Virus record (IMG/VR): IMGVR_UViG_3300045135_000898
Location: 1-64,000 of that record
Strand: one strand, 5' to 3'
Origin: a virus
Length of the DNA: 64,000 bases
In this document: piece by piece, positions 35,919 through 64,000 of the stretch
How the letters are laid out: each line of letters starts with the position of its first letter
How positions within the stretch are numbered: position 1 is the first letter of the stretch
Notes under the pieces: generated by a model
What the model saw: only the letters and a program-made list of their open reading frames with translations
What the model was told of the DNA's origin: nothing
Databases searched by the model: none
Made by a program: the position numbers and the translations under genes

Positions 35919-35984
35919 ATAATGTATACTATACTGAACATTATTACATATTTTCGTCATAATGTTCACTATTCTTAACATTAT
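35919..35984. repeat. Two operator-like inverted repeats
   Basis: ATAATGT (35919-35925) and ACATTAT (35938-35944), then ATAATGTT (35959-35966) and AACATTAT (35977-35984), two spaced dyads of the same sequence between the methyltransferase end and the promoter at 35851. They could bind a dimeric regulator; none is identified. Confidence 0.5.
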
Positions 35985-37189
35985 AAGAAGGCTTCGAGAG
36001 TATTCGTAGCAAGATTGCCAACATCAATCGATTGGCGGTGATTGTTCTGTTTAACGAAGTCAGTTTCAGTCATTGGTAGTTCACCGCGGACAAACTTAAT
36101 TGCTTCTTCAACCATAGATGCAGCAGTGCATACAGGAACGTTCTGAGCAATCATATTCATTTTAGCCAAACCCCCTTGAAGCTCAAAATCATGCGGGAAT
36201 GCCATCATATGTAATGCTTCACGGATATTCAAAGAACGATCTTCTTCAGGGTGTACTGTGTCAGCGAGGTTACGACCAATAACAGCATTCATAGCATCGT
36301 CAAAAATATGCGTTGAGCTATCCCAAATTCCCATACCTTTACTGAACTTCATAATAGCATGGTCAGCAAGCTGTACACCTTTCGTATCACCGGTTTCAGC
36401 AAACCAATCTCGAGCTTCATTAAGCAAACCGGCGCGCTGAATAAACGAAAATGCAGTATTACGACCTGCACCAATTACAACTTCACGAGCATCTTTACCA
36501 AACTTGTGTTCAATAAACTTGAAGTATGATTCACGAGTACCTACACGATCGTTGATAACAAGGTCTTGTTGAATTGCATTTTTAGGAATTTCACGAAGGT
36601 ATTCTTTAAAGTTTTTGCGAGGTTCTTTATACCAATGCATAATTGGTGCTTTGCCGCCTTTCCAAAAAATATAGAAAGTACGATCACGATTTTGAGGTAC
36701 ACCATGAAGAGAAGTAGTTGTCTTGTACAGTGTCATGGCATAGCCGTTTTCACGAGCAATTTCAAGAAGCTTATCAGCAACAGGTTTACCTTTGTTCGTA
36801 TAAAGCGCAGGGGCATTCTCTCCAATGATTACGTCAGCTTTAAACTTTTGCATACCATCGGTAGCCGATTGATACATCCATTTGTTTACTTCGGCATCAG
36901 CGCCTTTTGCTTCTTTACTCTTACCAGTATTAAGCTGAGATAGGCCTGCACAAGGCGGGGTTGCAACGAGAATGTTAACCTTTGGTAGACTTGGAGTTTC
37001 ATCTATAGTAACATACTGTAGACCACTTCGTCCAAGGGTTTCCTTTTGATAGTTAACGTATTGCCCATCGTTTCCGGCAAAACCGTCGTAAGAATAAATG
37101 TTAGTAGGTGGTACGCCTGTGGCCTTTTCAGCGCCTAGAGGTAAACCGCCAATAAGTGGAATTAGCGGTGCCCATGTAATATCGTTCAT
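35981..37189 (-). CDS. C5-cytosine methyltransferase family protein
   Basis: 402 residues. Motif IV PPCAGLSQ with Cys80, ENAPALY (ENV box), GVPQNRDRTFYI (motif VIII) and the terminal QNVPVCTA (motif X) are present. Motif I reads LIPLIGGLPLG, with Phe and Gly of FxGxGG replaced. It may methylate cytosine or, since the phage makes hydroxymethyl-dCMP, act on modified bases or non-catalytically; both are inference. It is followed by a glycosyltransferase gene, seven bases upstream in transcription. Confidence 0.75.
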   Translation of the reverse strand: MNDITWAPLIPLIGGLPLGAEKATGVPPTNIYSYDGFAGNDGQYVNYQKETLGRSGLQYVTIDETPSLPKVNILVATPPCAGLSQLNTGKSKEAKGADAEVNKWMYQSATDGMQKFKADVIIGENAPALYTNKGKPVADKLLEIARENGYAMTLYKTTTSLHGVPQNRDRTFYIFWKGGKAPIMHWYKEPRKNFKEYLREIPKNAIQQDLVINDRVGTRESYFKFIEHKFGKDAREVVIGAGRNTAFSFIQRAGLLNEARDWFAETGDTKGVQLADHAIMKFSKGMGIWDSSTHIFDDAMNAVIGRNLADTVHPEEDRSLNIREALHMMAFPHDFELQGGLAKMNMIAQNVPVCTAASMVEEAIKFVRGELPMTETDFVKQNNHRQSIDVGNLATNTLEAFL

Positions 37190-37195
37190 AATTAA

Positions 37196-38440
37196 TTATC
37201 CAAAAAAGTCAGTCAAGTCAAAAGTTTCAATTACTTTCTTTTCAAAGTTAGCAAGGACAGGTGGTTCATAACCTTCAATCAATTCCTGCATAACGACTTG
37301 GTTAAGTTGAGTTCCATCGTAGTATTCTGGCTTGCAGAACATATCCTGTAATTCCTGAATAGCTGAATTATATATCTTATCATCTGACAGTGCAGCTACT
37401 GCTTTAGCAAGATCAGCTGGAGTTTCAGGTCGTAACCATTTAGGTACTTTTAGATTATCCTGCTCATCATATGTCGGATGGAAGAAAGGAATAACTCCAG
37501 CATGGATCATTTCCACGTATTTTGAAGTAGTCCAGCCTTTAGCAATTGGGATGATAAATGTTGCCCTAACCGACTTAAGCTTTTCTTGCAAATCTTCAAG
37601 GGCCATAGAACCTTTAAAGCGATCATCTTCCAACGTGGCTTCGTGATCCCATTTTCCGTAGATTTCGACGTCGTCGTTTCCATCAAGTACCCACTCCTTT
37701 AGCATTTTGTATCGTGACGGTGTACCTTCATTTAACACAACCATAAAGTCGGTTAAACGAGTAAAAGCCGGACCTGGGTAAGGAGCTTCAGGTTTACCTC
37801 GACCGTACAAAAAGATTTTTTCCATTTCAGCATACTTCGCAGGCACTTCAGTTTCAACACGAGTTTGATCTGCATAGCTACGAGATGCCGTACGTTTGTA
37901 GTTATATGTATATTGCGAAAGGCTAATCTTAGGATCAACAAAACAGTCTTTGCTTTGCGCAAGAGTGTAGCGTGGATCATTGCAGATTTCAATGACATTC
38001 ATTTCTGGATTTTCATTTAGCCATTTCGTAATAGGCGTAGTGTAGTTACGAGTCATGTCAATAATCGCAACAGTCTTACTAGGATCTCGTTGACCCCAAA
38101 TGCGATCAGGTATTGATACATTACCAACCTGACCCATCATCATAATAAAGTGGTCAGGCTGAAATCCAAGATCATCAAAGTACTTAATTACTCGGTCTTG
38201 GTCAGCTGGACCTTTATGTCCTTCAAATGCATCTTTTACATTATCGTAAGGAAACAGATCAATTCGCTGTTCTTCGGTAAGACGGTTGAAGTCAGATCTA
38301 CCAATGATATGAAAAGTAATATCTGGATTATTATTGGCAAGAATTCGTAACATCGAAGGTGCTTCATTGTCCCCTCCGACTGGACTAAACGCTGTTACGA
38401 ATTTAATTGACTTGCCAAGTTTTGCAAATGCTATATTCAT
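37196..38440 (-). CDS. GT-B type glycosyltransferase, putative DNA sugar transferase
   Basis: 414 residues. The C-terminal half carries a nucleotide-sugar-binding stretch KGWTTSKYVEMIHAGVIPF and FHPTYDEQDN, like GT-B glycosyltransferases. The final residues TFDLTDFFG match the C-terminal clamp-binding-like tail of the polymerase; T4 alpha-glucosyltransferase is known to interact with the clamp gp45. Its neighbours (methyltransferase homologue, gp42, sugar nucleotidyltransferase) support a role in glycosylating hydroxymethylcytosine in DNA. The sugar is unknown. Confidence 0.7.
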   Translation of the reverse strand: MNIAFAKLGKSIKFVTAFSPVGGDNEAPSMLRILANNNPDITFHIIGRSDFNRLTEEQRIDLFPYDNVKDAFEGHKGPADQDRVIKYFDDLGFQPDHFIMMMGQVGNVSIPDRIWGQRDPSKTVAIIDMTRNYTTPITKWLNENPEMNVIEICNDPRYTLAQSKDCFVDPKISLSQYTYNYKRTASRSYADQTRVETEVPAKYAEMEKIFLYGRGKPEAPYPGPAFTRLTDFMVVLNEGTPSRYKMLKEWVLDGNDDVEIYGKWDHEATLEDDRFKGSMALEDLQEKLKSVRATFIIPIAKGWTTSKYVEMIHAGVIPFFHPTYDEQDNLKVPKWLRPETPADLAKAVAALSDDKIYNSAIQELQDMFCKPEYYDGTQLNQVVMQELIEGYEPPVLANFEKKVIETFDLTDFFG

Positions 38441-38790
38441 TTATCTGCCCATTCTATAAATTGTGAAAGGTTCATCGCCTTATCGTCAACATAATAAGTA
38501 GATGAGTACGGTTTACCGAAGATAAGATTATCATACGGTACGTTGTAAGTATTTAGCCAGTCTTCTGTAACAACAAGTACGTCATCTAAGATTTTATTAA
38601 GGTCTCCATTATGAGTCAGCATACGACGAGCTGAACTGATCGTGATATGGAAACCTTCATTCTTAAGTTTATGCATTCTTTCAATAATTGCAGTATTAGG
38701 TCTTGCCAACCCATACTTACGATACGTGGATTTTTCAGAATGATTTGGAAAACAAATTGTATCGTCAAGATCAAACACTATACTCTTCAC
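38437..38790 (-). CDS. HAD-family phosphatase
   Basis: 117 residues starting at a GTG (GAGGAG upstream). FDLDDTICF is the DxDxT nucleophile motif, and YYVDDKAMN the distal acidic motif; the cap is minimal, as in sugar-phosphate or capsule-biosynthesis HADs. It overlaps the flanking genes by a few bases, so it likely works with them, for example dephosphorylating a sugar intermediate. Confidence 0.75.
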   Translation of the reverse strand: MKSIVFDLDDTICFPNHSEKSTYRKYGLARPNTAIIERMHKLKNEGFHITISSARRMLTHNGDLNKILDDVLVVTEDWLNTYNVPYDNLIFGKPYSSTYYVDDKAMNLSQFIEWADK

Positions 38791-40264
38791 TAAGGTACTC
38801 CTCTACATAATATTTAAAGCGTGACTGACGTTCAGGGTCGTCGTAATGAAGTGGTATGCAAGTAGCAATCAATAAACAACCTGCATCAATGATTTCTTTA
38901 ACTGGTAAGTTGTACTCTTTAAGCTTACGCACAAAGATGTCTTTAACATACTCGTTATGTTTAACGTTTGCAACCATTGCGCCGTAGCCATGATACAAGT
39001 CATGTGCTAGTTTTGCAAAATCATAAATATGATCGCCTTCAGTACCAACATATGATCCGTACGCTCCTCGTGGGTCAATCAGTTTAATTTGATTCGTTTG
39101 TTGGTTATAAAGAATGTTACCGAAATGAAGATCGCCGTGCATACCTGTAATAGGACGAGTAATGCGATAAGCTGCTTCACTAATTTTCAACAGCTTTTGG
39201 CGATCATTCTCAGTAAACTTAACGTTACGTAAACGCTTAGTCGTTTTCGTTACCCACATGTCTTCAGCTAATTGGTCAAACTCTCGGATGAATACTTCGT
39301 CATCACAAAGTTCATTGAAGTAATTGAGTTTGATTTTAAATACTTTATCTATGATGTATTCCCATGCCGACTCGCTAAGGTTTTCATATAACATTAAGTC
39401 AGAAAGAAGCGTACCACTCTCGTACGACATTACAAGATCATGTTTGGTTTCAAGTACGCGAGGAACGAACATTGATTGTTCAGGAGTAAGCATACGGTAC
39501 CACTTTTTCTCGGTACGAATAGTTTCAACTGAAGTGGCATTATGATAGTCAGGTGACTTACGAACAGTGCCAAGATCAGGATCATACATCATATCATTGA
39601 ACGCACGACTCTTCAAATTCAGTAATTTTGCGCATGTTTCATAATATGTAGGTAAATCGCCGATATCATACCACTTATTGGTCAGAACACGCTCGTATTT
39701 GCCGTAAACTTCAAGGGCATGTGAAATATCGTATTGTTCCACAGTATTAAAGGCGTTTTGGGCAGAAATCCCATTTTTAAATGAATATAGGCCGACTAAA
39801 GCAACCGCATCAGATATCTTATTGGTTGGCTTATTATAATACGCTTCGCCATCCCACATACACCAAGCTGATTGATTATCTACCTCTTTACATAAAAGGA
39901 AGTCAGAACCAAATGGCATATCTTCTTCAAGAATGATTGCGTCGCCTAACCAAACAACGACAGGTTTAGATGGATCCTCAAGAGCATTCATACCGCGAGC
40001 AATCGCATCGCGTGGGCCATCATAATTAGGTTGGTTCGCGAACTTGACATCAGGGTGACGTCTGCTGCAGTATTCACGGATATCGTTAAACTTACCATCA
40101 ACGATTACAATCTCGGCGATATCAGCAGTCTTACGAGCTTGTTCAATAATATAGTCAAGACACGGCTTACCGTTAACGCGAACCATAACTTTGGAAGTGT
40201 TACTAGAAAGCGGACGCAGCCTAGTGGCAGCACCCGCAGCTGGTATGATTAAATTTACAGACAT
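38771..40264 (-). CDS. Sugar-nucleotidyltransferase / kinase fusion
   Basis: 497 residues in two domains. The first 230 have the nucleotidyltransferase start IPAAGAATRLRPL at 7-19 and the Lys in SKVMVRVNGKP. The rest is an aminoglycoside-type kinase with HGDLH followed by GNILY and a DPRG metal motif near residues 375-395. The combination would phosphorylate a sugar and couple it to a nucleotide, supplying the donor for the adjacent glycosyltransferase. Substrate unknown. First gene after the promoter at 40291. Confidence 0.75.
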   Translation of the reverse strand: MSVNLIIPAAGAATRLRPLSSNTSKVMVRVNGKPCLDYIIEQARKTADIAEIVIVDGKFNDIREYCSRRHPDVKFANQPNYDGPRDAIARGMNALEDPSKPVVVWLGDAIILEEDMPFGSDFLLCKEVDNQSAWCMWDGEAYYNKPTNKISDAVALVGLYSFKNGISAQNAFNTVEQYDISHALEVYGKYERVLTNKWYDIGDLPTYYETCAKLLNLKSRAFNDMMYDPDLGTVRKSPDYHNATSVETIRTEKKWYRMLTPEQSMFVPRVLETKHDLVMSYESGTLLSDLMLYENLSESAWEYIIDKVFKIKLNYFNELCDDEVFIREFDQLAEDMWVTKTTKRLRNVKFTENDRQKLLKISEAAYRITRPITGMHGDLHFGNILYNQQTNQIKLIDPRGAYGSYVGTEGDHIYDFAKLAHDLYHGYGAMVANVKHNEYVKDIFVRKLKEYNLPVKEIIDAGCLLIATCIPLHYDDPERQSRFKYYVEEYLSEEYSV

Positions 40265-40322: not shown

Positions 40323-40784
40323 CTAAAAGTGATTTAATTCAACAACTTCAAAATCAATGCCAACTTCATTGAACATTGCTTTGGTATCCTCAAACGATAC
40401 TTTCCACTTAACTCCCATTTTATCAAACGATAAAGGAAGCCCAATTACAACTCGCTTAGTTCCTACTTGGATAAGTCCCTTTGCGCATTCAGAGCAAACA
40501 GGTAATCCATAAACGTAAACAGTCGAGCCGTCAAGACTTACGCCGTTATATGTAGCATTATAGATGACATTCTTTTCAGCGTGTACGACATATGTGTATT
40601 TCTCTTCACGATTATTTAGCCTTTCAGAAGAATCATCAATACCACGAGGAAATCCGTTATAGCCTTGCGAAAGAATTCGTTTATTATCGTCTACAGCAAT
40701 GGCGCCGATTTTAGCTGATGGGTCTTTTGACCACATCGCCACTTCTTTAGCCATTGCCATAAAGCGTTCATCCCATTTATTCAT
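40323..40784 (-). CDS. cd: dCMP deaminase
   Basis: 153 residues, starting at the ATG at 40784. Zinc site: His68 and Glu70 in HAE, Cys97 and Cys100 in PVCSEC. Converts dCMP to dUMP for thymidylate synthesis, here via ThyX. The stop-start overlap TAATG with the upstream gene shows coupling to the gene at 40784-41470. Confidence 0.93.
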   Translation of the reverse strand: MNKWDERFMAMAKEVAMWSKDPSAKIGAIAVDDNKRILSQGYNGFPRGIDDSSERLNNREEKYTYVVHAEKNVIYNATYNGVSLDGSTVYVYGLPVCSECAKGLIQVGTKRVVIGLPLSFDKMGVKWKVSFEDTKAMFNEVGIDFEVVELNHF

Positions 40785-41470
40785 TAGTCCCACAACGCCT
40801 CATAATATTTACCAAACAATCGGAAACCGTTACTGATGCGTTCTTGATATGCTTTACGACCTTCCATGTCAATTTCGAATGTATGGTTAGGTCCGTGTTT
40901 CATTTCAAAGTATTGAGCGTCTTCTTTAGCCACTTCATAACCGTCTTCATCGACAGGTGAAAAATAAACGTCATGTTCACCGCTACAGAATTGATCTTCC
41001 CAATCATCATTAAGTTTCGATTCAAAGGCAAAGATCATTTCGCCCATTACCCATTCCCAACGCTTAAAGAATTTGTCATCAGTGGTACCATCTTTCTGGT
41101 ATGCAGTCTCTTCAACCGATGTTGCCCATAGTTCTTCAGGCACATCTTCAGAGTCAACCTGTGGTGCTCCATGTTTAGTCTCTTTAAGTTGCTTCAACAT
41201 TGGCACCATAATATGTGCTAACGTATGGTCCATGCTCCAAGTATCCCACGGATCAAGTTTTACTTTAATCTTCTGCTCACGTTTATCCAAGAAGTAATTA
41301 ATTGGACTATAAAGATTTTGTAAGATATCATCAAACTTATCAAGGAAGCGTTCAAACTTCGTCTGCTTGCTTTCGCTAGGCCAATGACTAAAGCCATACT
41401 TCTTAGTCATATAGTCAGCGTATATTGTTGCTCGTAAACGACTTGGATATGGGCCAATACGTACTTTCAT
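40784..41470 (-). CDS. Conserved phage protein, 228 aa
   Basis: Opens MKVRIGPYPSRLRATIYADY and has HTLAHIMVPML and a Trp/Glu-rich mid domain. Homologues are frequent in large marine phages, always of unknown function. It sits between gp42 and dCMP deaminase in one transcript, so a role in nucleotide or DNA modification metabolism is possible but unsupported by motifs. Confidence 0.6.
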   Translation of the reverse strand: MKVRIGPYPSRLRATIYADYMTKKYGFSHWPSESKQTKFERFLDKFDDILQNLYSPINYFLDKREQKIKVKLDPWDTWSMDHTLAHIMVPMLKQLKETKHGAPQVDSEDVPEELWATSVEETAYQKDGTTDDKFFKRWEWVMGEMIFAFESKLNDDWEDQFCSGEHDVYFSPVDEDGYEVAKEDAQYFEMKHGPNHTFEIDMEGRKAYQERISNGFRLFGKYYEALWD

Positions 41471-41471
41471 A

Positions 41472-42161
41472 TTACTCTCCTAGAAGATGGAAGTGGCGAC
41501 TATACACATGTAAATTCTGAACTTGCCAATGGATATCACCTGATGATAACAAAGGACCAAAAGTATCTTCTGCAAAGCTAGCATTGTAATTACTCACCAT
41601 TAAGTCAAGTAAGTAGCGTTGCCAAGCGTAATCATTTTTGTAACCAAAGATTACATCGTTTGATCGCATCTGAACTACACAGTGCATTTTACCGTTGCGG
41701 ATGTAGTATGTAACAGAGTTAGTACAAATGAAGTCAGATTTACCGTTTTCATTATACTCAGTCCAAATTGATGGGCGAGTGTAAATCATCGAGGCGCGAC
41801 GAGAATCAGGATTATTGATTAACTCATACAATGCTTTTTCAAACTGATTAAAGTACTTATTTGAAAACACAAGAGTACCGTAGTTTGAATTAATGTTGCC
41901 ATGATGATCGCCTGTCATTTTCCATGCAGCAGGAGGTTCTTTTTGTCCATGATAAATGTCGTTGATGTTAGTCGACATTGAGAGATACCAATCAATTTCA
42001 GAAGCAACGTACTCTTCATTCACTGTACCAAAGATGGATGGTTCGTCAGCTAGGAAAGATGCACCAAGCATTTCGATAGTCTTACCACCGTTACGATCTT
42101 GTGTAAAACGCTCAGCCGCAAGTTCAGCTTTAAAATATTCGCGGATGTCTTGTACATTCAT
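41472..42161 (-). CDS. 42: dCMP hydroxymethylase (gp42)
   Basis: 229 residues from the ATG at 42161 (GAGGAA upstream). Close to T4 gp42 across its length, including GASFLADEPSIFG, SDFICTNSV (nucleophile Cys146) and KNDYAWQ (Asp177, the residue that distinguishes hydroxymethylation from methylation). It makes 5-hydroxymethyl-dCMP, so the genome likely contains hydroxymethylcytosine, which the clustered glycosyltransferase could modify. T4 gene 1 kinase is not in this window. Confidence 0.95.
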   Translation of the reverse strand: MNVQDIREYFKAELAAERFTQDRNGGKTIEMLGASFLADEPSIFGTVNEEYVASEIDWYLSMSTNINDIYHGQKEPPAAWKMTGDHHGNINSNYGTLVFSNKYFNQFEKALYELINNPDSRRASMIYTRPSIWTEYNENGKSDFICTNSVTYYIRNGKMHCVVQMRSNDVIFGYKNDYAWQRYLLDLMVSNYNASFAEDTFGPLLSSGDIHWQVQNLHVYSRHFHLLGE

Positions 42162-42165
42162 AATA

Positions 42166-42348
42166 TTACTCTTCCTCTTCAATTACAAGATTGCCTGGGA
42201 TATGATATCCGCATGCTCGTAAGAATTCAGCATATGCTTCTAACATATGATCAAGATTTGCTTCATCAGCCAATTCCATTTTTACAGAATTCACTGCAGT
42301 ATACGGAGAATGCATTTCTGGTCTTTTGTAAATTAGTTTAAATGGCAT
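42166..42348 (-). CDS. Hypothetical small protein, 60 aa
   Basis: Starts MPFKLIYKRPEMHSPYTAVN, ends in EEEE; a small mixed alpha/beta domain. Overlaps the upstream gene by one base and is followed by gp42 in the same transcript. No family recognised. Confidence 0.55.
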   Translation of the reverse strand: MPFKLIYKRPEMHSPYTAVNSVKMELADEANLDHMLEAYAEFLRACGYHIPGNLVIEEEE

Positions 42349-46570: not shown

Positions 46571-46764
46571 TCTGTTAGTTCCTCTTCTGTAATATAACCA
46601 TGCTCAATGAATAAGGCGAGCATACACGCGACGTCGCCTAATTCTTGTTTAAGATTTTCTTCGCTATCAGGAGAAAGGCCAAACCGTTTGATCTTAGACA
46701 TAATCATAATAAGTTCAGCGCATTCTTCTCCAGTGACAGTGAATAGTTCGTCTTCTAAGTTCAC
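46504..46764 (-). CDS. MazG-like NTP pyrophosphatase
   Basis: 86 residues starting at a GTG that overlaps the polymerase stop. EECAELIMIMSK and QELGDVACMLALF give the EExxE...ExxD pattern of single-domain MazG-like enzymes. It hydrolyses NTPs or dNTPs, cleaning up non-canonical nucleotides; substrate unknown. Directly downstream of gp43. Confidence 0.75.
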   Translation of the reverse strand: MNLEDELFTVTGEECAELIMIMSKIKRFGLSPDSEENLKQELGDVACMLALFIEHGYITEEELTECADAKKQKLMKWSDLIPDEYK

Positions 46765-49292
46765 CCAAAGAAATCCTCGAGGCTAACAACCTCTTCTGAT
46801 GTCCAACCGATTGCATCAAGAATTGGTGTAACCGCATCTAGGAATGTTTTGTTGAACATTGTTTCGTAATCGATGTACTTATGTAATTGCATTTCAACTG
46901 GAAGATAATCAGGAAACGAAATAACATTTTCACGAATAGGATTAGGTTTACGCAAGTAACAGAACTTGACTTTATCGCCATTCTGAATCTTTTCGTATGC
47001 TTTAAGACCTTTATCCTCAAGCGTGTTATTGTACATCAGTGCGCCACGAACATGAATAGGAGTACCTTTCTTGTACACCGTTTTATTGTCGCGCCACTTG
47101 ATTACATCGGATACCCCACGAGGAAATGATACGTCCTCAGGCGGCAACGTAGTAAAGTGATCTTTAAATTGCTGGATTGCTTTTTGAGTGTTAGACTCTG
47201 AACCTGTCATAATTACTTTGAACATATTCTTCATAGCAGAACGACATACTTCAGGAGTACTTGACTTAATAGCCTCGATACCCATGATCTTAAGTTTAGG
47301 TTCTTTGTACTCAACGCCTTCAGAGTTATGTACATTAAGAATATAACGTTTCTTAGCAGTCCATACACCTTTATCTGCAATGACCTCACGTTCCATAACC
47401 ATCTTCTGAGCATACGAATTCATATGTACAGCAAGTTCGTCGTAAGACTTTGCGATCATTGGTTCAAATTGGTCAGAGACCATCTTATCAACCAAATCAA
47501 CTACTTCTTTGATTGGTTTTTTGTCGAAGCCAAGCTTTTTAACCAAAGGACCAAAGTTAACGTAGTTAGAGTCAGTATCAATAGCGATGACATAATCAAA
47601 TTTGTTTGTACCACATATCTTGTTCATAAAACCGTTAAACGAGTGTTCAGCCCAACGAATAGCAAGCTGACCTGTAAGCGTAATACCTTCGGCGACACGA
47701 AGATCGTAATAACGGAACCAACGGTTACCCATCGCACCATATAATGAGTTCATCAAGATCTTGGCAGCCATTTGTTGGTTATCCAAAGTTGCTACTTGTT
47801 TTTCCAACTTATAAACTTCAATCTTGTTTGACTTATCAACGTTCACCAATTCTTGTTGAGCAGCTAGCATCTTTTTCTTAGTTGCTTTACGCTCAGCATA
47901 AATGGTTTCGATGATTCCTGGAATAACTCCTTGCTTGTCTTTGCGATACAGTGTACCGTTAGCTGCCATAGCATATTCGTCAGGTCTAGGATTACTAGGA
48001 TTAGTGCGAGTAAGACAGTTATCAACATTAACGCCTGGGACTACGTCATTTACGATAGTTTCAGGAGACATGTTACATTGCATAATGATGTGTGGGTATA
48101 GTGAGTTCAAGTCGAACGAAACTACCCAGTCATGCATACCAACTTGTGGAGCTTTAACGTAACCACCTGCAAAGTCAGACTTCATCTTGTCTTCGTTAGG
48201 AGGTACGACTACACCTTTATCATGTAGGTCACGGTATAGAATAGAATCCCAAATCGCGGTTGTACCTAATGTGTCACCATAATTGACACCACCGCGGTAC
48301 GCAAGTGTCATAGCTAAGTTAATCAGACCAAGCTTGTCATCAAGTCGGTAAACAATGCCAACGTCTTTGATGTTATAGTCACCAAACTTTTGAGGATCCT
48401 TTTCATATAGATCCTGGAGGTCTTTGTACTCTTCGTAAGACAATTTCTTTTCACCAAGTTCGACGTGTGCGATGTGGTCAAGCTTGTACGATTCCTGAGC
48501 CGTGTAAGTAAACTTTTTGTAAAGTTCAATGTAGTCAAGTTCAGTTACACCAAGGATTTCGTAAAACATTTGTTCACGACCATTTACCTTAATGTTGCGT
48601 TGATTGACCTTACCCCAAGGAGATAACTTCTGAGCAAAGTCTTCACCTAGCAAACGGAGGATACGATTAATGACATACGGCGTATCGAAGAAACGACAGT
48701 TCCAGCCTGAAATGATATCAGGCGTATTAACCGGAGATGACCACCAACCTACGAATGCTGAAAGCAAGTTAGCTTCAGTTTCGCAATAAAAGTATTCAAC
48801 ATCCATACCTTCAAGATCAAGCTCAGTCTTAGACTTATCCCATTCTTTTAAGTACCAAAGGTAATACTTGTTTTCTTGGTTATTGCGGTATGCGATAGCG
48901 TTGATAGGGTTAAGAGCTTCAGATGGATCAGAGTAACCATCTTCAGTTTTCATAACCTCGATATCGTAAAAGCCAACGTTCACGGTGTCAGGATCAAACT
49001 CGATATGACCTGGGAAACGTTCTTGTAGATGCTGAACAACATAGTTGGTGTTACCGTACACCTTGAAGTTAGGCATATCTTTGTAACGCTCGATGAAGTC
49101 TTTAGCTTCACGCATGTCATCCAATTGGATAGACGAAACCCTTACGCCGTCAAGCGCAAAGGTTTCCGATTTTGGATCCGGCACGAATAGTGTCGGTTTG
49201 AAACGAACCTTCTCATGGACCCGATGGCCATTCTTATAGCCGCGGTAAAGAAGGTTGTTTCCATAACGTATAACTGATGTGTAAAATTCCAA
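46761..49292 (-). CDS. 43: DNA polymerase (gp43), family B
   Basis: 843 residues against 898 in T4; the reading frame is complete and starts at a TTG with GGAGG upstream. Exo motifs: GFYDIEVM, a FDTPYV segment and IKDVGIVYRLD. Polymerase motifs: A FDLNSLYPHI, B KILMNSLYGAMGN, C AIDTDSNYV. The C-terminus SLEDFFG is a clamp-binding-like tail. Replicates phage DNA with gp44/62 and gp45. Not split or intron-interrupted. Confidence 0.98.
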   Translation of the reverse strand: MEFYTSVIRYGNNLLYRGYKNGHRVHEKVRFKPTLFVPDPKSETFALDGVRVSSIQLDDMREAKDFIERYKDMPNFKVYGNTNYVVQHLQERFPGHIEFDPDTVNVGFYDIEVMKTEDGYSDPSEALNPINAIAYRNNQENKYYLWYLKEWDKSKTELDLEGMDVEYFYCETEANLLSAFVGWWSSPVNTPDIISGWNCRFFDTPYVINRILRLLGEDFAQKLSPWGKVNQRNIKVNGREQMFYEILGVTELDYIELYKKFTYTAQESYKLDHIAHVELGEKKLSYEEYKDLQDLYEKDPQKFGDYNIKDVGIVYRLDDKLGLINLAMTLAYRGGVNYGDTLGTTAIWDSILYRDLHDKGVVVPPNEDKMKSDFAGGYVKAPQVGMHDWVVSFDLNSLYPHIIMQCNMSPETIVNDVVPGVNVDNCLTRTNPSNPRPDEYAMAANGTLYRKDKQGVIPGIIETIYAERKATKKKMLAAQQELVNVDKSNKIEVYKLEKQVATLDNQQMAAKILMNSLYGAMGNRWFRYYDLRVAEGITLTGQLAIRWAEHSFNGFMNKICGTNKFDYVIAIDTDSNYVNFGPLVKKLGFDKKPIKEVVDLVDKMVSDQFEPMIAKSYDELAVHMNSYAQKMVMEREVIADKGVWTAKKRYILNVHNSEGVEYKEPKLKIMGIEAIKSSTPEVCRSAMKNMFKVIMTGSESNTQKAIQQFKDHFTTLPPEDVSFPRGVSDVIKWRDNKTVYKKGTPIHVRGALMYNNTLEDKGLKAYEKIQNGDKVKFCYLRKPNPIRENVISFPDYLPVEMQLHKYIDYETMFNKTFLDAVTPILDAIGWTSEEVVSLEDFFG

Positions 49293-49660: not shown

Positions 49661-49683
49661 AGAGGCCGACCAATTCGACCTCT
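49661..49683 (-). terminator. Terminator hairpin
   Basis: On the minus strand AGAGGTCGA pairs with TCGGCCTCT (one G-U) around ATTGG, then ATTTTAT. It lies between the 15-aa peptide and the LSm-like gene, so it ends the small-gene transcript. Confidence 0.65.
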
Positions 49684-49692
49684 GTGCATTAT

Positions 49693-49740
49693 TTATTTAC
49701 CAAACAATTCATCATATTCTTCGTTGGTATAAGGCCACAT
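49693..49740 (-). CDS. 15-aa peptide MWPYTNEEYDELFGK
   Basis: ATG at 49740 with AAAAAGGAC at Shine-Dalgarno distance and stop TAA at 49695. The peptide ends in a motif (YDELFGK) like the C-terminal tails of the polymerase and gp55, so it might bind the sliding clamp. It lies directly after the gene at 49743 in the same late transcript. So short a gene is judged by its ribosome site and by the motif. Confidence 0.45.
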   Translation of the reverse strand: MWPYTNEEYDELFGK

Positions 49741-49742
49741 AA

Positions 49743-49964
49743 TTAGTCCTTTTTAGAAACGAATGAATATAGTTCTTTTGCCTTTTCAGTAAGCTCGTCC
49801 ATGCTGTATGGTTTCATAGCTTCCTGTAGTTCTTCAGCCGTTTTCTTACCTTCTTCAAACATCTTCTGAGTGAACTCCATGTTCATCGTCCAAGCGTTAT
49901 CAAGGTAATCTTTAGCCATTGCTAGCATTTCTGTACGGATTTCGAAAGGGTTTTTATTAGACAT
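49743..49964 (-). CDS. Conserved small T4-type helical protein, 73 aa
   Basis: MSNKNPFEIRTEMLAMAKDY and a long amphipathic helix ending in SKKD. Similar proteins are common in marine T4 relatives near gene 43, function unknown. Transcribed from the late promoter at 50230. Confidence 0.6.
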   Translation of the reverse strand: MSNKNPFEIRTEMLAMAKDYLDNAWTMNMEFTQKMFEEGKKTAEELQEAMKPYSMDELTEKAKELYSFVSKKD

Positions 49965-55020: not shown

Positions 55021-55335
55021 TTAACCGAACAATTCTTCGTAGAGACCTTCGATCTCTTCATACTCGGTTTGTACCTGGGCAAAAGTTTGTTTATGGTACA
55101 TAGACGCCAACTTCTTGATGTATTTCTTATCTACACCAGTTTCATCGGCAACTTTATCTACAGCTTCTTTTTGAAAATCACGTTCAGCATCAATACGAGT
55201 CATGCTGTTGCTGATTTCGCCAATAGCTTTCGACAGACGTTCTTTATCTTTAGGATTGGTAATCATTTCAAGTAGTGCTCCAAATTGTTTACGGATTTCT
55301 GTACGTACGATATCGTCACGTGCTTCTGTGTTCAT
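55021..55335 (-). CDS. dsbA: DsbA-like DNA-binding late-transcription protein
   Basis: 104 residues. The C-terminal half DETGVDKKYIKKLASMYHKQ aligns with T4 DsbA (ELGVDGKMFNRLLALYHKD), a dsDNA-binding protein near late promoters. Ends GLYEELFG, a clamp-tail-like motif. Charged N-terminal helix is longer than in T4 (89 aa). Shares the tRNA-containing transcript with gp45. Confidence 0.8.
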   Translation of the reverse strand: MNTEARDDIVRTEIRKQFGALLEMITNPKDKERLSKAIGEISNSMTRIDAERDFQKEAVDKVADETGVDKKYIKKLASMYHKQTFAQVQTEYEEIEGLYEELFG

Positions 55336-55604: not shown

Positions 55605-56279
55605 TCATTCTCCTGTAGTTGATGACTTTTCAAGGGCGATGAAGTATTCAGTTCCATCTTCGTTAGTGAATCGGGAGATTAGCTTCGAAGAAATATCAAC
55701 GTTGTAATCACCTGATGTCAGTTTAAAATTAGCAATTGTAAATACATATTTGAAACCTGATGTTTCAGATGTACCTGCCTGTAGTTCAATCTTGAACGAG
55801 TTAGCAGTTGAGTTTTTAGTGTCAGTAACAATACCAACAAGTTGTCCATCTTCTTCAGTGATAACCAACTCTGATACACCAAGAGCAGATGCCGCTTTAC
55901 GAATAGAAGCAAGATCTTCGGAAGTAAGAGTAAAGTTAACATCAACTGCCGGCATATTTATATCCTTACCTGGAGTAGTGAGGATTTCCGGATCAGAGAA
56001 GAAGTAACGAACTGAACTGCGACCTTCGCGTACAGTTACGCTGTTCATATCAGGTGCAAAGTCAAGATCTGGGTCATTAAACATACCGTACACCGATAGG
56101 AATTCGCCAAGATCGTAAATACCAAATGTACCTTCGAATGTTTCAGCGACTTCAGCTTTAGCTAGAACGTTCTTAGCTTCAGCCATTGTACGAAGTACGT
56201 TACCTTCTTGGATAACGATGTTTGAGTTGATGGTCGCAAAGTTCTTAAGCAGATTGACCGTATCAGCAGAAAGTTTCAT
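55605..56279 (-). CDS. 45: Sliding clamp (gp45)
   Basis: 224 residues from the ATG at 56279, which gives the T4-like start MKLSADTVNLLKNFATINSN; the GTG at 56291 is a less likely start. It encircles DNA for the polymerase and, with gp55 and gp33, activates late promoters. T4 gp45 has 228 residues. It is first in the transcript from 56316. Confidence 0.96.
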   Translation of the reverse strand: MKLSADTVNLLKNFATINSNIVIQEGNVLRTMAEAKNVLAKAEVAETFEGTFGIYDLGEFLSVYGMFNDPDLDFAPDMNSVTVREGRSSVRYFFSDPEILTTPGKDINMPAVDVNFTLTSEDLASIRKAASALGVSELVITEEDGQLVGIVTDTKNSTANSFKIELQAGTSETSGFKYVFTIANFKLTSGDYNVDISSKLISRFTNEDGTEYFIALEKSSTTGE

Positions 56280-56315
56280 AGTGTAGTTCACCTTTTTTCA
56301 TTAGACAGTAGAGCT

Positions 56316-57908: not shown

Positions 57909-58130
57909 TTATACCTCCTCGATGAAGTCCTCGGCAGGAGTATAACCAAGTTGTTCAGTAAGTTCGGTGATGTAATGAATGTTATCAGAAGAAAAGCGGT
58001 AAAGAGGATTGCCGCCGCCTGGGCCAAATTCTTTAATAAGTTCAGCGATACAGCCGTGATCTTCAGCGAATTGTTTTACAGCAGAAAAAGAAGTTTCAGC
58101 AGTAATGTCAAGATAAGCAGTGTAAGTCAT
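57909..58130 (-). CDS. Hypothetical protein, 73 aa
   Basis: Start placed at the ATG at 58130 (AAAAGGAATCGC upstream). MTYTAYLDITAETSFSAVKQ and a Gly-rich turn FGPGGGNP, then an acidic end. Small mixed alpha/beta protein; unknown. Single gene between the CobT- and CobS-like genes, with promoters on both sides. Confidence 0.55.
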   Translation of the reverse strand: MTYTAYLDITAETSFSAVKQFAEDHGCIAELIKEFGPGGGNPLYRFSSDNIHYITELTEQLGYTPAEDFIEEV

Positions 58131-58161
58131 GTGCGATTCCTTTTGTTTAATTGATGGAGCT

Positions 58162-58190
58162 ATTATACCCCACCATCTGCTACTTGTAAA
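58162..58190 (-). promoter_or_regulatory. Early promoter with small flanking repeat
   Basis: TTTACA-17-TATAAT on the minus strand; GATGG and CCATC flank the -10. Confidence 0.82.
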
Positions 58191-58231
58191 CATTTTTTTT
58201 CACCTTTTTAGAACTTTGAGGAATAACCTTA

Positions 58232-62448: not shown

Positions 62449-63509
62449 TATGCAATCTCCATATTTGACGCTTCAGTAAATAACGTACGCATTAGTACTT
62501 TCATCTTATCTTTATCAAGGTCAGTCTCAACAGCCTCAACGTAAGAATCAAGCAACGATGGCGTATCCTCTACCGAGATACTTTCATCTTCAACGTTTTC
62601 GCCCAAGAACTCAGAAAAAGTTTCAGCAATTTTCAATTCATGAGTATCAACATTTTGTAAGCGGTCAATAAACTTATCAAAAGAATACGGATCCGACTTC
62701 TTAACAACAACCACCTTAACGAATTTGTCTTTAACTGATTCAACGTCGTATGTACTATAATCGTTTTCTTCGTCGTTGTAAACAATCTTTTCAAACATAG
62801 TGATTGGATTGCGTACAGGAGTCAATTCACGTGTTTCAGTATCAAAAACATGGAAGTACTTAGGGTCGTCAGCATCAGCCCAGGTAAATTCCATTTGAGA
62901 TCCAAGGTAGCGAATGTTGCCTTCTTCAGATGCAGTGTGGAAATGACCTGACCAAACATGCTCAAATCTTGATAGTACGCTTGCATCCATGCCGTGCATG
63001 TTCTTAACGCCTTTCATAAGATCAAACCCAGCAAGCTCAAAGTGGCCACCAAGAATTGACGCCTTACAGTTTTTAAGGAACTTCATGGAGTCGGTATAGT
63101 TCTCATTATTGATCCAAGGAATAAGAGCAATTGAACAACCATCGTAATCCATTACTCGTGGTTCCATAATAATGTTAACATTGCCTGTGTAATAACCAAG
63201 TAGCTCTTTAAGCGAACATAAATCATTAGTGTTTTTGTAAAATACGTCATGGTTACCTGGGATAATATCCATGGTAATACCTTCACGTTTTAGTACGTCA
63301 AGAAACACTTTACGGTTATGGTTCAATGCTTTAAAGTTTACATATTTACGATGTTCATAATAATCGCCCAGGTGGATAATGGTTTTGATACCATGTTCCT
63401 TTAGGTATGGAAAGAAGACATCCGAATAAAACGCCTCCTGATAGTTCATAAACACTTCAGAGCTGTTACGTGCTCCACAGTGAGTATCATTCAAAATCGC
63501 AATTTTCAT
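62448..63509 (-). CDS. 47: Mre11/SbcD-like nuclease subunit (gp47)
   Basis: 353 residues, metallophosphoesterase motifs ILNDTHC, IIHLGDYYEH, IPGNHDVFY, GGHFE and VWSGHFH in order. Forms the recombination exonuclease with gp46. T4 gp47 has 339 residues. Directly follows gp55 in the transcript. Confidence 0.96.
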   Translation of the reverse strand: MKIAILNDTHCGARNSSEVFMNYQEAFYSDVFFPYLKEHGIKTIIHLGDYYEHRKYVNFKALNHNRKVFLDVLKREGITMDIIPGNHDVFYKNTNDLCSLKELLGYYTGNVNIIMEPRVMDYDGCSIALIPWINNENYTDSMKFLKNCKASILGGHFELAGFDLMKGVKNMHGMDASVLSRFEHVWSGHFHTASEEGNIRYLGSQMEFTWADADDPKYFHVFDTETRELTPVRNPITMFEKIVYNDEENDYSTYDVESVKDKFVKVVVVKKSDPYSFDKFIDRLQNVDTHELKIAETFSEFLGENVEDESISVEDTPSLLDSYVEAVETDLDKDKMKVLMRTLFTEASNMEIA

Positions 63510-64000
63510 TAACCAAGTTCTCCAAAGAACAACTCAAGACCTTCTGGGTTGCTCTTATCTTCTTTCTTTTCGTATTTAGCGAATTCTTTAATTACACGGT
63601 CTTGGTCGTGTACTCGTTCAATGCGTGATCTCAATTCATCGACAAATGCGTATTCATCACCTGCTTCATATCCATTTTCATCTTGGACTGTAAAGAAGTC
63701 TTCGTATCCACCTTTCTCAATGAATTTAAATTTTACGTCCTGCTGTTTCTTTTCCTTTTGGATTCGACGTAAGAACGCGTAATATGAGATCTGCGTAAAA
63801 TACGCAAATGCATTTGGTAGACCAGTACGAGTTGCCTTCTCAATGTCATAGTTCATGATTGCCTTAAGACTATTTTCAACAGCATCCATCACCATCTCTT
63901 CACGGTATGTGTACCTAATGAAGTTAGACTTGTATGATAGACCTTCTGCAATCTTAAGAAAACACTCAGCTATGTAATCTGGAATGATAGGAACAACTTC
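63509..64000 (-). CDS. 55: Late sigma factor (gp55), N-terminus cut by window edge
   Basis: Visible residues run from EVVPIIPDYIAECFLKIAEG through GLELFFGELG. The region with FAYFTQISYYAFLRRIQKEK matches T4 gp55 [20 protein letters not shown]. The C-terminus GLELFFG is the type of tail by which T4 gp55 binds gp45. It recognises the TATAAATA late promoters listed here. The open frame continues unbroken off the right edge, so the true start is outside the window. Confidence 0.92.
   Translation of the reverse strand, partial: EVVPIIPDYIAECFLKIAEGLSYKSNFIRYTYREEMVMDAVENSLKAIMNYDIEKATRTGLPNAFAYFTQISYYAFLRRIQKEKKQQDVKFKFIEKGGYEDFFTVQDENGYEAGDEYAFVDELRSRIERVHDQDRVIKEFAKYEKKEDKSNPEGLELFFGELG

Follow-up and report, generated by a model that had tools for sequence, protein, structure and literature searches.

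The phage DNA polymerase gp43 and late sigma factor gp55 are textbook clamp binders, and those of T4 end SLDFLFG and SLDFLYEAND, respectively. A short motif can also link a C5 methyltransferase to a clamp, as with DNMT1 and PCNA in replication-coupled methylation, although that system serves eukaryotic maintenance methylation and its motif is not C-terminal. The clamp motifs of T4 gp43, gp55 and gp33 are described as alike and interchangeable in PMC2988020, and the motif carriers named in PMC7892883 are the polymerase, ligase, gp33 and gp55. In the pull-down reported in PMC13216743, gp45 co-purified with T4 α-glucosyltransferase and not with β-glucosyltransferase; clamp interaction is presented in that report as not mainly behind the excess of α-glucosylation or the glucosylation ratio in T4.

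The window that we analysed comprises 64,000 nucleotides, positions 1–64,000 of an 81,970-base IMG/VR record. This record encodes a T4-like gene set of gp43, gp45, gp44, phrog_225 (the second clamp-loader subunit of the contig), RegA, gp46/47-like genes, gp55, UvsX and ligase, and the nearest annotated relative of its polymerase is that of phage C48C1 (51% identity), followed by cyanophage enzymes. A search for gp33 across the contig returned no match, and a candidate homologue at 57,909–58,193 was dropped, no relatives of it having been found.

According to the original prediction, five proteins of this window share a clamp-docking tail that connects replication, sugar modification and late transcription. 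All five lie on the minus strand, and re-reading them from that strand gave the C-termini exactly as they had been written. They are the family-B polymerase gp43 (46,761–49,292; phrog_262, E=0), whose tail VVSLEDFFG contains the reference clamp-binding motif SLEDFFG; gp55 (63,509–64,000 in the window, with its start at 64,096 beyond it; phrog_234, 8.8e-25), which has the tail GLELFFGELG and ends PEGLELFFGELG; a 414-aa GT-B-type glycosyltransferase (GT; 37,196–38,440) ending VIETFDLTDFFG, in which the tail FDLTDFFG (codons at 37,199–37,222) follows a variable linker; a DsbA-like protein (55,021–55,335; PF11126, 8.8e-14) ending IEGLYEELFG; and a 15-aa micropeptide (49,693–49,740), MWPYTNEEYDELFGK. 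The proposed docking partner, the gp45 sliding clamp, is encoded on the same strand at 55,605–56,291 (phrog_223, 1.6e-73). As in the T4/RB69 clamp motif of gp43, gp55, gp33 and DNA ligase, a short hydrophobic-acidic C-terminus follows a variable linker; however, the form found here is mostly LxxFF, and it is also carried by the GT and a C5 methyltransferase. In contigs L394 (328 kb), L395 (342 kb) and L396 (83 kb), gp43 ends NTLFEFE, TNLFEF and DDLFSFN, tails that we take to be nearer the RB69 type than LEDFF.

Polymerase-type tails in the modification cassette

A 7-column profile made from 18 gp43 tails scored highest, among the 126 predicted genes of the 82-kb contig, on gp43 (22.9 bits), the GT (12.2), gp55 (12.2) and the DsbA-like protein (5.0). 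The GT and gp55 scores lie above those of all 5,424 internal windows from this genome, while 0.9% of these windows match or exceed the DsbA score. The GT and gp55 tails are beyond chance; the DsbA tail, judged by score alone, is not.

Relatives of the GT were collected by a single-sequence scan (12) and an alignment scan (161, of which the best 80 were used). With these best 80 included, the motif is present in 27 of 29 distinct 14-aa tails and 87 of 89 full-end sequences, and many tails are letter-identical to those of gp43 (TLEDFFG; TLEDFFA is also common to both). In an alignment of seven diverse homologues, L409, F412 and F413 are invariant and the linker between them and the catalytic part is variable; across 36 motif-bearing C-termini, column entropy is 1.05–2.56 bits in the linker compared with 0.00–0.18 at the L, F and F positions. 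The exceptions are the GT of contig L178, which ends SLEELLN, and that of Pseudoalteromonas phage XG4, which has no tail. Further tailless relatives occur in Enterococcus phages 9183 and Planchet, where a DNA polymerase III gene adjoins the cassettes; another, known as a partial sequence, comes from an Agathobaculum phage. gp45 was present on 31 of the 37 GT contigs searched. Nearly all homologues from gp45-bearing phages keep the tail, with XG4 an exception, and those from phages of another type lack it.

Matches to the GT were absent from Pfam, PHROG and NCBIfam, and BLAST found no meaningful similarity to T4 β-glucosyltransferase. Its AlphaFold2 model is moderately confident (pLDDT 75.5, pTM 0.77) and has T4 β-glucosyltransferase (1qkj) as its best PDB match (E 1.2e-9, TM 0.49/0.56, 12% identity), with T4 α-glucosyltransferase (1y6f) also among the structure matches; the predicted fold is GT-B, like that of T4 β-glucosyltransferase. 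Past residue 387 the model is mostly coil, with a short, low-confidence helix at 409–413.

The C5-cytosine DNA methyltransferase adjoining the GT (35,981–37,189, minus strand; PF00145) is an additional tail bearer that the original prediction did not include, although its tail in the window, NTLEAFL, is of the FL and not the FF type. Under a strict pattern, 26 of 30 distinct methyltransferase tails and 67 of 75 sequences carry the motif, and under a looser one 37 of 38 distinct C-termini do; the tails outside the strict pattern are TLEEFI, TLEELIE and ATLESFI, and the XG4 enzyme has none. The GT and methyltransferase tails covary, both being degenerate in L178, both absent in XG4 and both present in the other 26 distinct pairs. 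The L178 contig (23 kb, perhaps a fragment) combines SLEELLN on the GT with TLEELIE on the methyltransferase, and searches of it yielded no gp45 and no family-B polymerase.

A wider scan covered 2,352 unique proteins of the fetched loci, with 22,301 internal windows as the null (maximum 11.1 bits). At or above 6.5 bits it returned 130 proteins, comprising 46 GTs, 35 gp43, two gp55 and 47 others, most of the latter being the methyltransferase adjoining the GT. The tail was also detected on D12 adenine methyltransferases of C48C1 (TLDAFFG) and contig L084 (TLDDFFVS), on C48C1 CDS0066 (SLEEFFV), which has weak oxygenase-like matches, and on a 98-aa protein of contig L129 (TLELFFD) with weak HNH matches. 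Among ten D12 relatives from cultures (nine cyanophages and C48C1), the motif is mostly absent and clear only in C48C1; the enzymes of S-WAM1, S-SZBM1 and P-TIM40 have PLExxx endings, and the C5 enzyme of S-TIM5 has no tail.

Specificity was assessed with one loose pattern applied to distinct C-termini of matches covering at least 90% of the query. The h-x-x-a-a spacing was found in 36 of 38 GT and 56 of 58 gp43 C-termini, in 12 of 15 for DsbA, and in two of three for gp55, for which only three C-termini survive the coverage filter (gp55 relatives elsewhere end DSDLTEFLE, DSDLVEFLQ and DSDLSEWMED). The pattern was absent from the replication proteins gp44 (0/62), gp45 (0/48), gp46 (0/19), gp47 (0/12) and ligase (0/2), from RegA (0/83) and a 95-aa phrog_527 protein (0/22), and from two suppliers in the cassette, the nucleotidyltransferase-kinase (0/17) and the dCMP deaminase (0/33). 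Few matches were seen for Hsp20 (2/99), UvsX (1/7) and a 228-aa cassette protein (1/1, YYEALWD), and more for the HAD (8/35) and thymidylate-synthase-like (7/33) proteins, the examples shown for these two being of a non-FF type.

Upstream of the GT and on the same strand lie genes for a thymidylate-synthase-type enzyme, possibly a pyrimidine hydroxymethylase (41,472–42,182), a dCMP-deaminase-type enzyme (40,323–40,793), a sugar nucleotidyltransferase fused to an APH-type kinase (38,771–40,264) and a HAD/PNKP-type phosphatase (38,437–38,790); the deaminase and the fusion protein carry no clamp tail. Downstream are the C5 methyltransferase and UvsX. Enterococcus phages 9183 and Planchet have a comparable cassette, in which the Planchet annotation reads thymidylate synthase/pyrimidine hydroxymethylase. 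This content points to base hypermodification with DNA as the probable acceptor, and the thymidylate-synthase-like, deaminase and sugar-nucleotide genes suggest that the GT would act on hydroxymethylated DNA. Within the cassette, the FF-type tail marks the enzymes expected to act on DNA, and not those making nucleotides or sugars.

Proposed docking on the sliding clamp

Since the GT and the C5 methyltransferase share the clamp tail of the polymerase, the DNA-modifying enzymes of these phages probably ride the gp45 clamp, and we consider docking through polymerase-type tails the most likely reading of the sequences. The h-x-x-aromatic-aromatic motif at the very C-terminus of each enzyme, borne on a flexible linker, would enter a hydrophobic pocket of the gp45 trimer in the manner of the gp43 and gp55 tails, and sugar and methyl groups could then be placed on new DNA just behind the fork. 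The same h-x-x-a-a spacing occurs in the PIP motif (QXXhXXaa) of PCNA clients such as archaeal Fen1, and the peptide given for structure 1RXM, KTTQSTLDSFFK, is very like TLEDFFG (PMC4929162); however, PCNA is another clamp and the phage tails lack the conserved Gln. T4 α-glucosyltransferase offers a precedent for clamp binding by a phage enzyme that glucosylates DNA, as reported in PMC13216743, whereas binding is predicted for the present GT, whose model is nearest to the β-enzyme that did not bind gp45 in that study.

Several observations count against docking. In XG4 the GT and methyltransferase are tailless even though homologues of gp43 and gp45 are present. T4 α-glucosyltransferase, a known clamp binder, has no such C-terminus, so that in T4 neither docking nor function requires a tail at this end. 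Most D12 methyltransferase relatives from cultured cyanophages are also without the motif, the GT model is only moderately confident, and the GT shows no sequence similarity to T4 β-glucosyltransferase. A different explanation would be that the two enzymes have ordinary amphipathic C-termini, which resemble the clamp motif by chance or through shared composition. The motif is indeed short, and loose matches to it arise elsewhere, as in the HAD, thymidylate-synthase-like and Hsp20 proteins above, but those shown are not of the FF type. Moreover, many tails of the GT and the methyltransferase score above 11.1 bits, a value that none of the 22,301 internal windows exceeds, and conservation climbs again past the variable linker, which makes such a resemblance improbable compared with docking on gp45.

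The DsbA-like protein and the micropeptide

The role of DsbA is described in PMC2988020 as yet to be discovered. In the window protein, the PF11126 match spans residues 39–103 of 104 and the C-terminus is modelled within a helix at 85–103 (pLDDT 65.7), so its ending is not a tail added to the family domain through a flexible linker. Close relatives end LYE[EDSQ]LFG, and T4 DsbA ends VVELYDTVFSK; the LYxx-hydrophobic ending is a feature of the whole family, T4 included, and the family is not known to bind the clamp. DsbA might nonetheless be a clamp-docked late-transcription factor in these phages, replacing the docking function of gp33. The endings of the close relatives would fit this proposal, as would the KVP40 endings, NLYEKLFDEE in DsbA and SDLGQWV in gp33, and the statement in PMC2988020 that clamp binding by gp33 of vibriophage and S-PM2 is not obvious from sequence. 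However, the T4 protein has its LYxx ending even though T4 gp33 keeps a motif of its own (NTLDFLL; the C48C1 gp33 ends NTLDV), some DsbA relatives end LYETIVG or VYKDVIG without an aromatic pair, the end is modelled as helical and the profile score is not exceptional. We regard this role as a tentative possibility that is more doubtful than not.

The micropeptide ORF is preceded by a Shine-Dalgarno-like AAGGA six bases ahead of its ATG. It starts two bases past the stop codon of a 73-aa gene (49,743–49,964, minus strand) and stops nine bases before a terminator-like hairpin on the same strand (49,661–49,683). The 73-aa protein has 383 relatives among viral contigs and a weak phasin-like match, but in 50,697 phage records it has a single match, a distant one in Roseobacter phage CRP-9. 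A degenerate DNA pattern leaving the tail free matched 17 viral contigs, 16 with 14–17-aa peptides having [FLW]F at positions 12–13 and one with a fusion to a peptidase-like frame; with only MWP fixed after AAGGACTAA, all matches behind a 73-aa-type gene were such a peptide or that fusion. In pairwise comparisons of codons 10–13, 131 of the single-base differences were synonymous and 136 nonsynonymous, where a synonymous fraction of 0.115 would be expected; the pairs are not independent and the set was selected for [FLW]F. The 15-aa ORF is in all likelihood a genuine gene of T4-like phages. No match to the peptide pattern was obtained in the prokaryote genome collection.

A freer pattern, in which the start codon, tail and ninth residue were unconstrained, gave 111 ATG-started MWPYTxEE frames among at least 120 stretches. 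Among the matches listed, 110 of the 111 frames are 32 aa or shorter, and they come from at least 110 viral contigs and represent 80 distinct peptides; these have L, I, V, F or M at position 12 in all 80, D or E at position 10 in 68 and F, W or Y at position 11 in 60, and only one is of the FF type. The family consensus is MWPYT[DE]EEx[DE][FWY][LI][SN], mostly 13–18 aa, often near Hsp20, 73-aa and gp43 genes or near lysozyme. The 131 distinct contexts, 28 of them of the FF-type subgroup to which the window peptide belongs, include at least 64 with Hsp20 upstream, at least 35 with gp43 within 2 kb downstream and at least 30 with lysozyme downstream, the 30 counted being all non-FF; many of the loci stop short of 2 kb. 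After removal of five that came from the peptide scan itself, 63 of the 68 distinct stretches kept downstream of the 73-aa gene remained, and by eye 13 of these had the peptide immediately behind that gene, including one fusion. In L024/L087 (a 141-kb contig), MWPYTEEEYN continues in frame into a peptidase-like reading frame, and the fusion apparently arose by loss of the terminator region. Another tiny ORF, MLDPDHTYLRYL[AS]EKKKGGK, follows the 73-aa gene in L079, L085 and L089, and in L079 and L085 sits ahead of MWPYT[ED]EELDFINGKKK.

The conserved core of the micropeptide is the N-terminal MWPYTxEE and not the clamp motif. A clamp role had at first been favoured by the FF-like free tails, all but one fusion, and by the codon comparison, and it fell with the freer scan and the pairing with gp43. 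As a free copy of the docking motif, the peptide would be a clamp ligand, a proposal that draws on the [FLW]F found at 12–13 in 16 of the 17 loci of the tail-free scan and on a position 0.4–1.5 kb upstream of gp43 wherever both were placed on one locus. Yet the FF type is one in 80 among the distinct peptides listed, the invariant MWPYTxEE has no counterpart in the gp43, GT or methyltransferase tails, and in 33 distinct peptide–gp43 tail pairs gp43 stays at [ST][LI][ED]xFF or nearly so while the peptide tail varies. We therefore give a ligand little credence, and as the function of the family a clamp role is not supported. TIP, a 64-aa PCNA inhibitor of Thermococcales, is a very small clamp-binding protein that has a domain (PMC4929162); for the 15-aa phage peptide, clamp binding is conjectural. 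Alternatively, the peptide could act as a leader or arrest peptide, its translation deciding whether the terminator behind it is read through. The hairpin lies just past the stop codon and, in most FF-type loci, the ORF starts within about 10 bases of the end of the 73-aa gene; on the other hand, such a hairpin, read by eye, follows many 73-aa genes without a micropeptide, and the peptide also occurs in other contexts, for instance ahead of lysozyme genes, leaving this function unlikely, if less so than that of a clamp ligand. The most speculative scenario, which we consider very improbable, is that MWPYTxEE peptides of 13–18 residues form a new class of T4-like phage regulators, of which the subgroup in the window has drifted into a free-standing clamp ligand, competing for gp45 with the tails of the polymerase, GT and methyltransferase and thereby timing the switch between replication, modification and late transcription. 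The presence of gp45 on seven of 25 micropeptide contigs had raised the idea of a peptide from phages without gp45; this was set aside, as gp43 was found on four of 11 gp45-negative contigs, so that a divergent gp45 may be missed and its absence is not claimed. In another search, gp45 or gp43 was found on 18 of 25 contigs.

Possible replication-coupled modification in uncultured T4-like phages

The original prediction of one shared docking tail is borne out in part. It holds for gp43 and gp55, as known clamp binders, and is supported for the GT, whose polymerase-type tail is kept in nearly all relatives from gp45-bearing phages, while for the 15-aa peptide it is not supported; among homologues the motif persists in the GT family, and the peptide family taken together does not conserve it. 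Neither such GT or methyltransferase tails nor the peptide were described in the titles and abstracts that searches of open-licence PMC papers listed, and the string MWPYT matched zero papers.

The micropeptide, mostly of 13–18 residues and present in at least 110 viral contigs, is small enough for gene callers to miss. The polymerase-type tail provides a simple sequence rule for spotting DNA-acting enzymes among unknown phage genes, and its yield here includes D12 adenine methyltransferases and two proteins with weak resemblance to an oxygenase and to HNH proteins, respectively. If the GT and the C5 methyltransferase do dock on gp45, hypermodification would be replication-coupled in a large group of uncultured T4-like phages, and new DNA would be covered before it meets host restriction or CRISPR nucleases.
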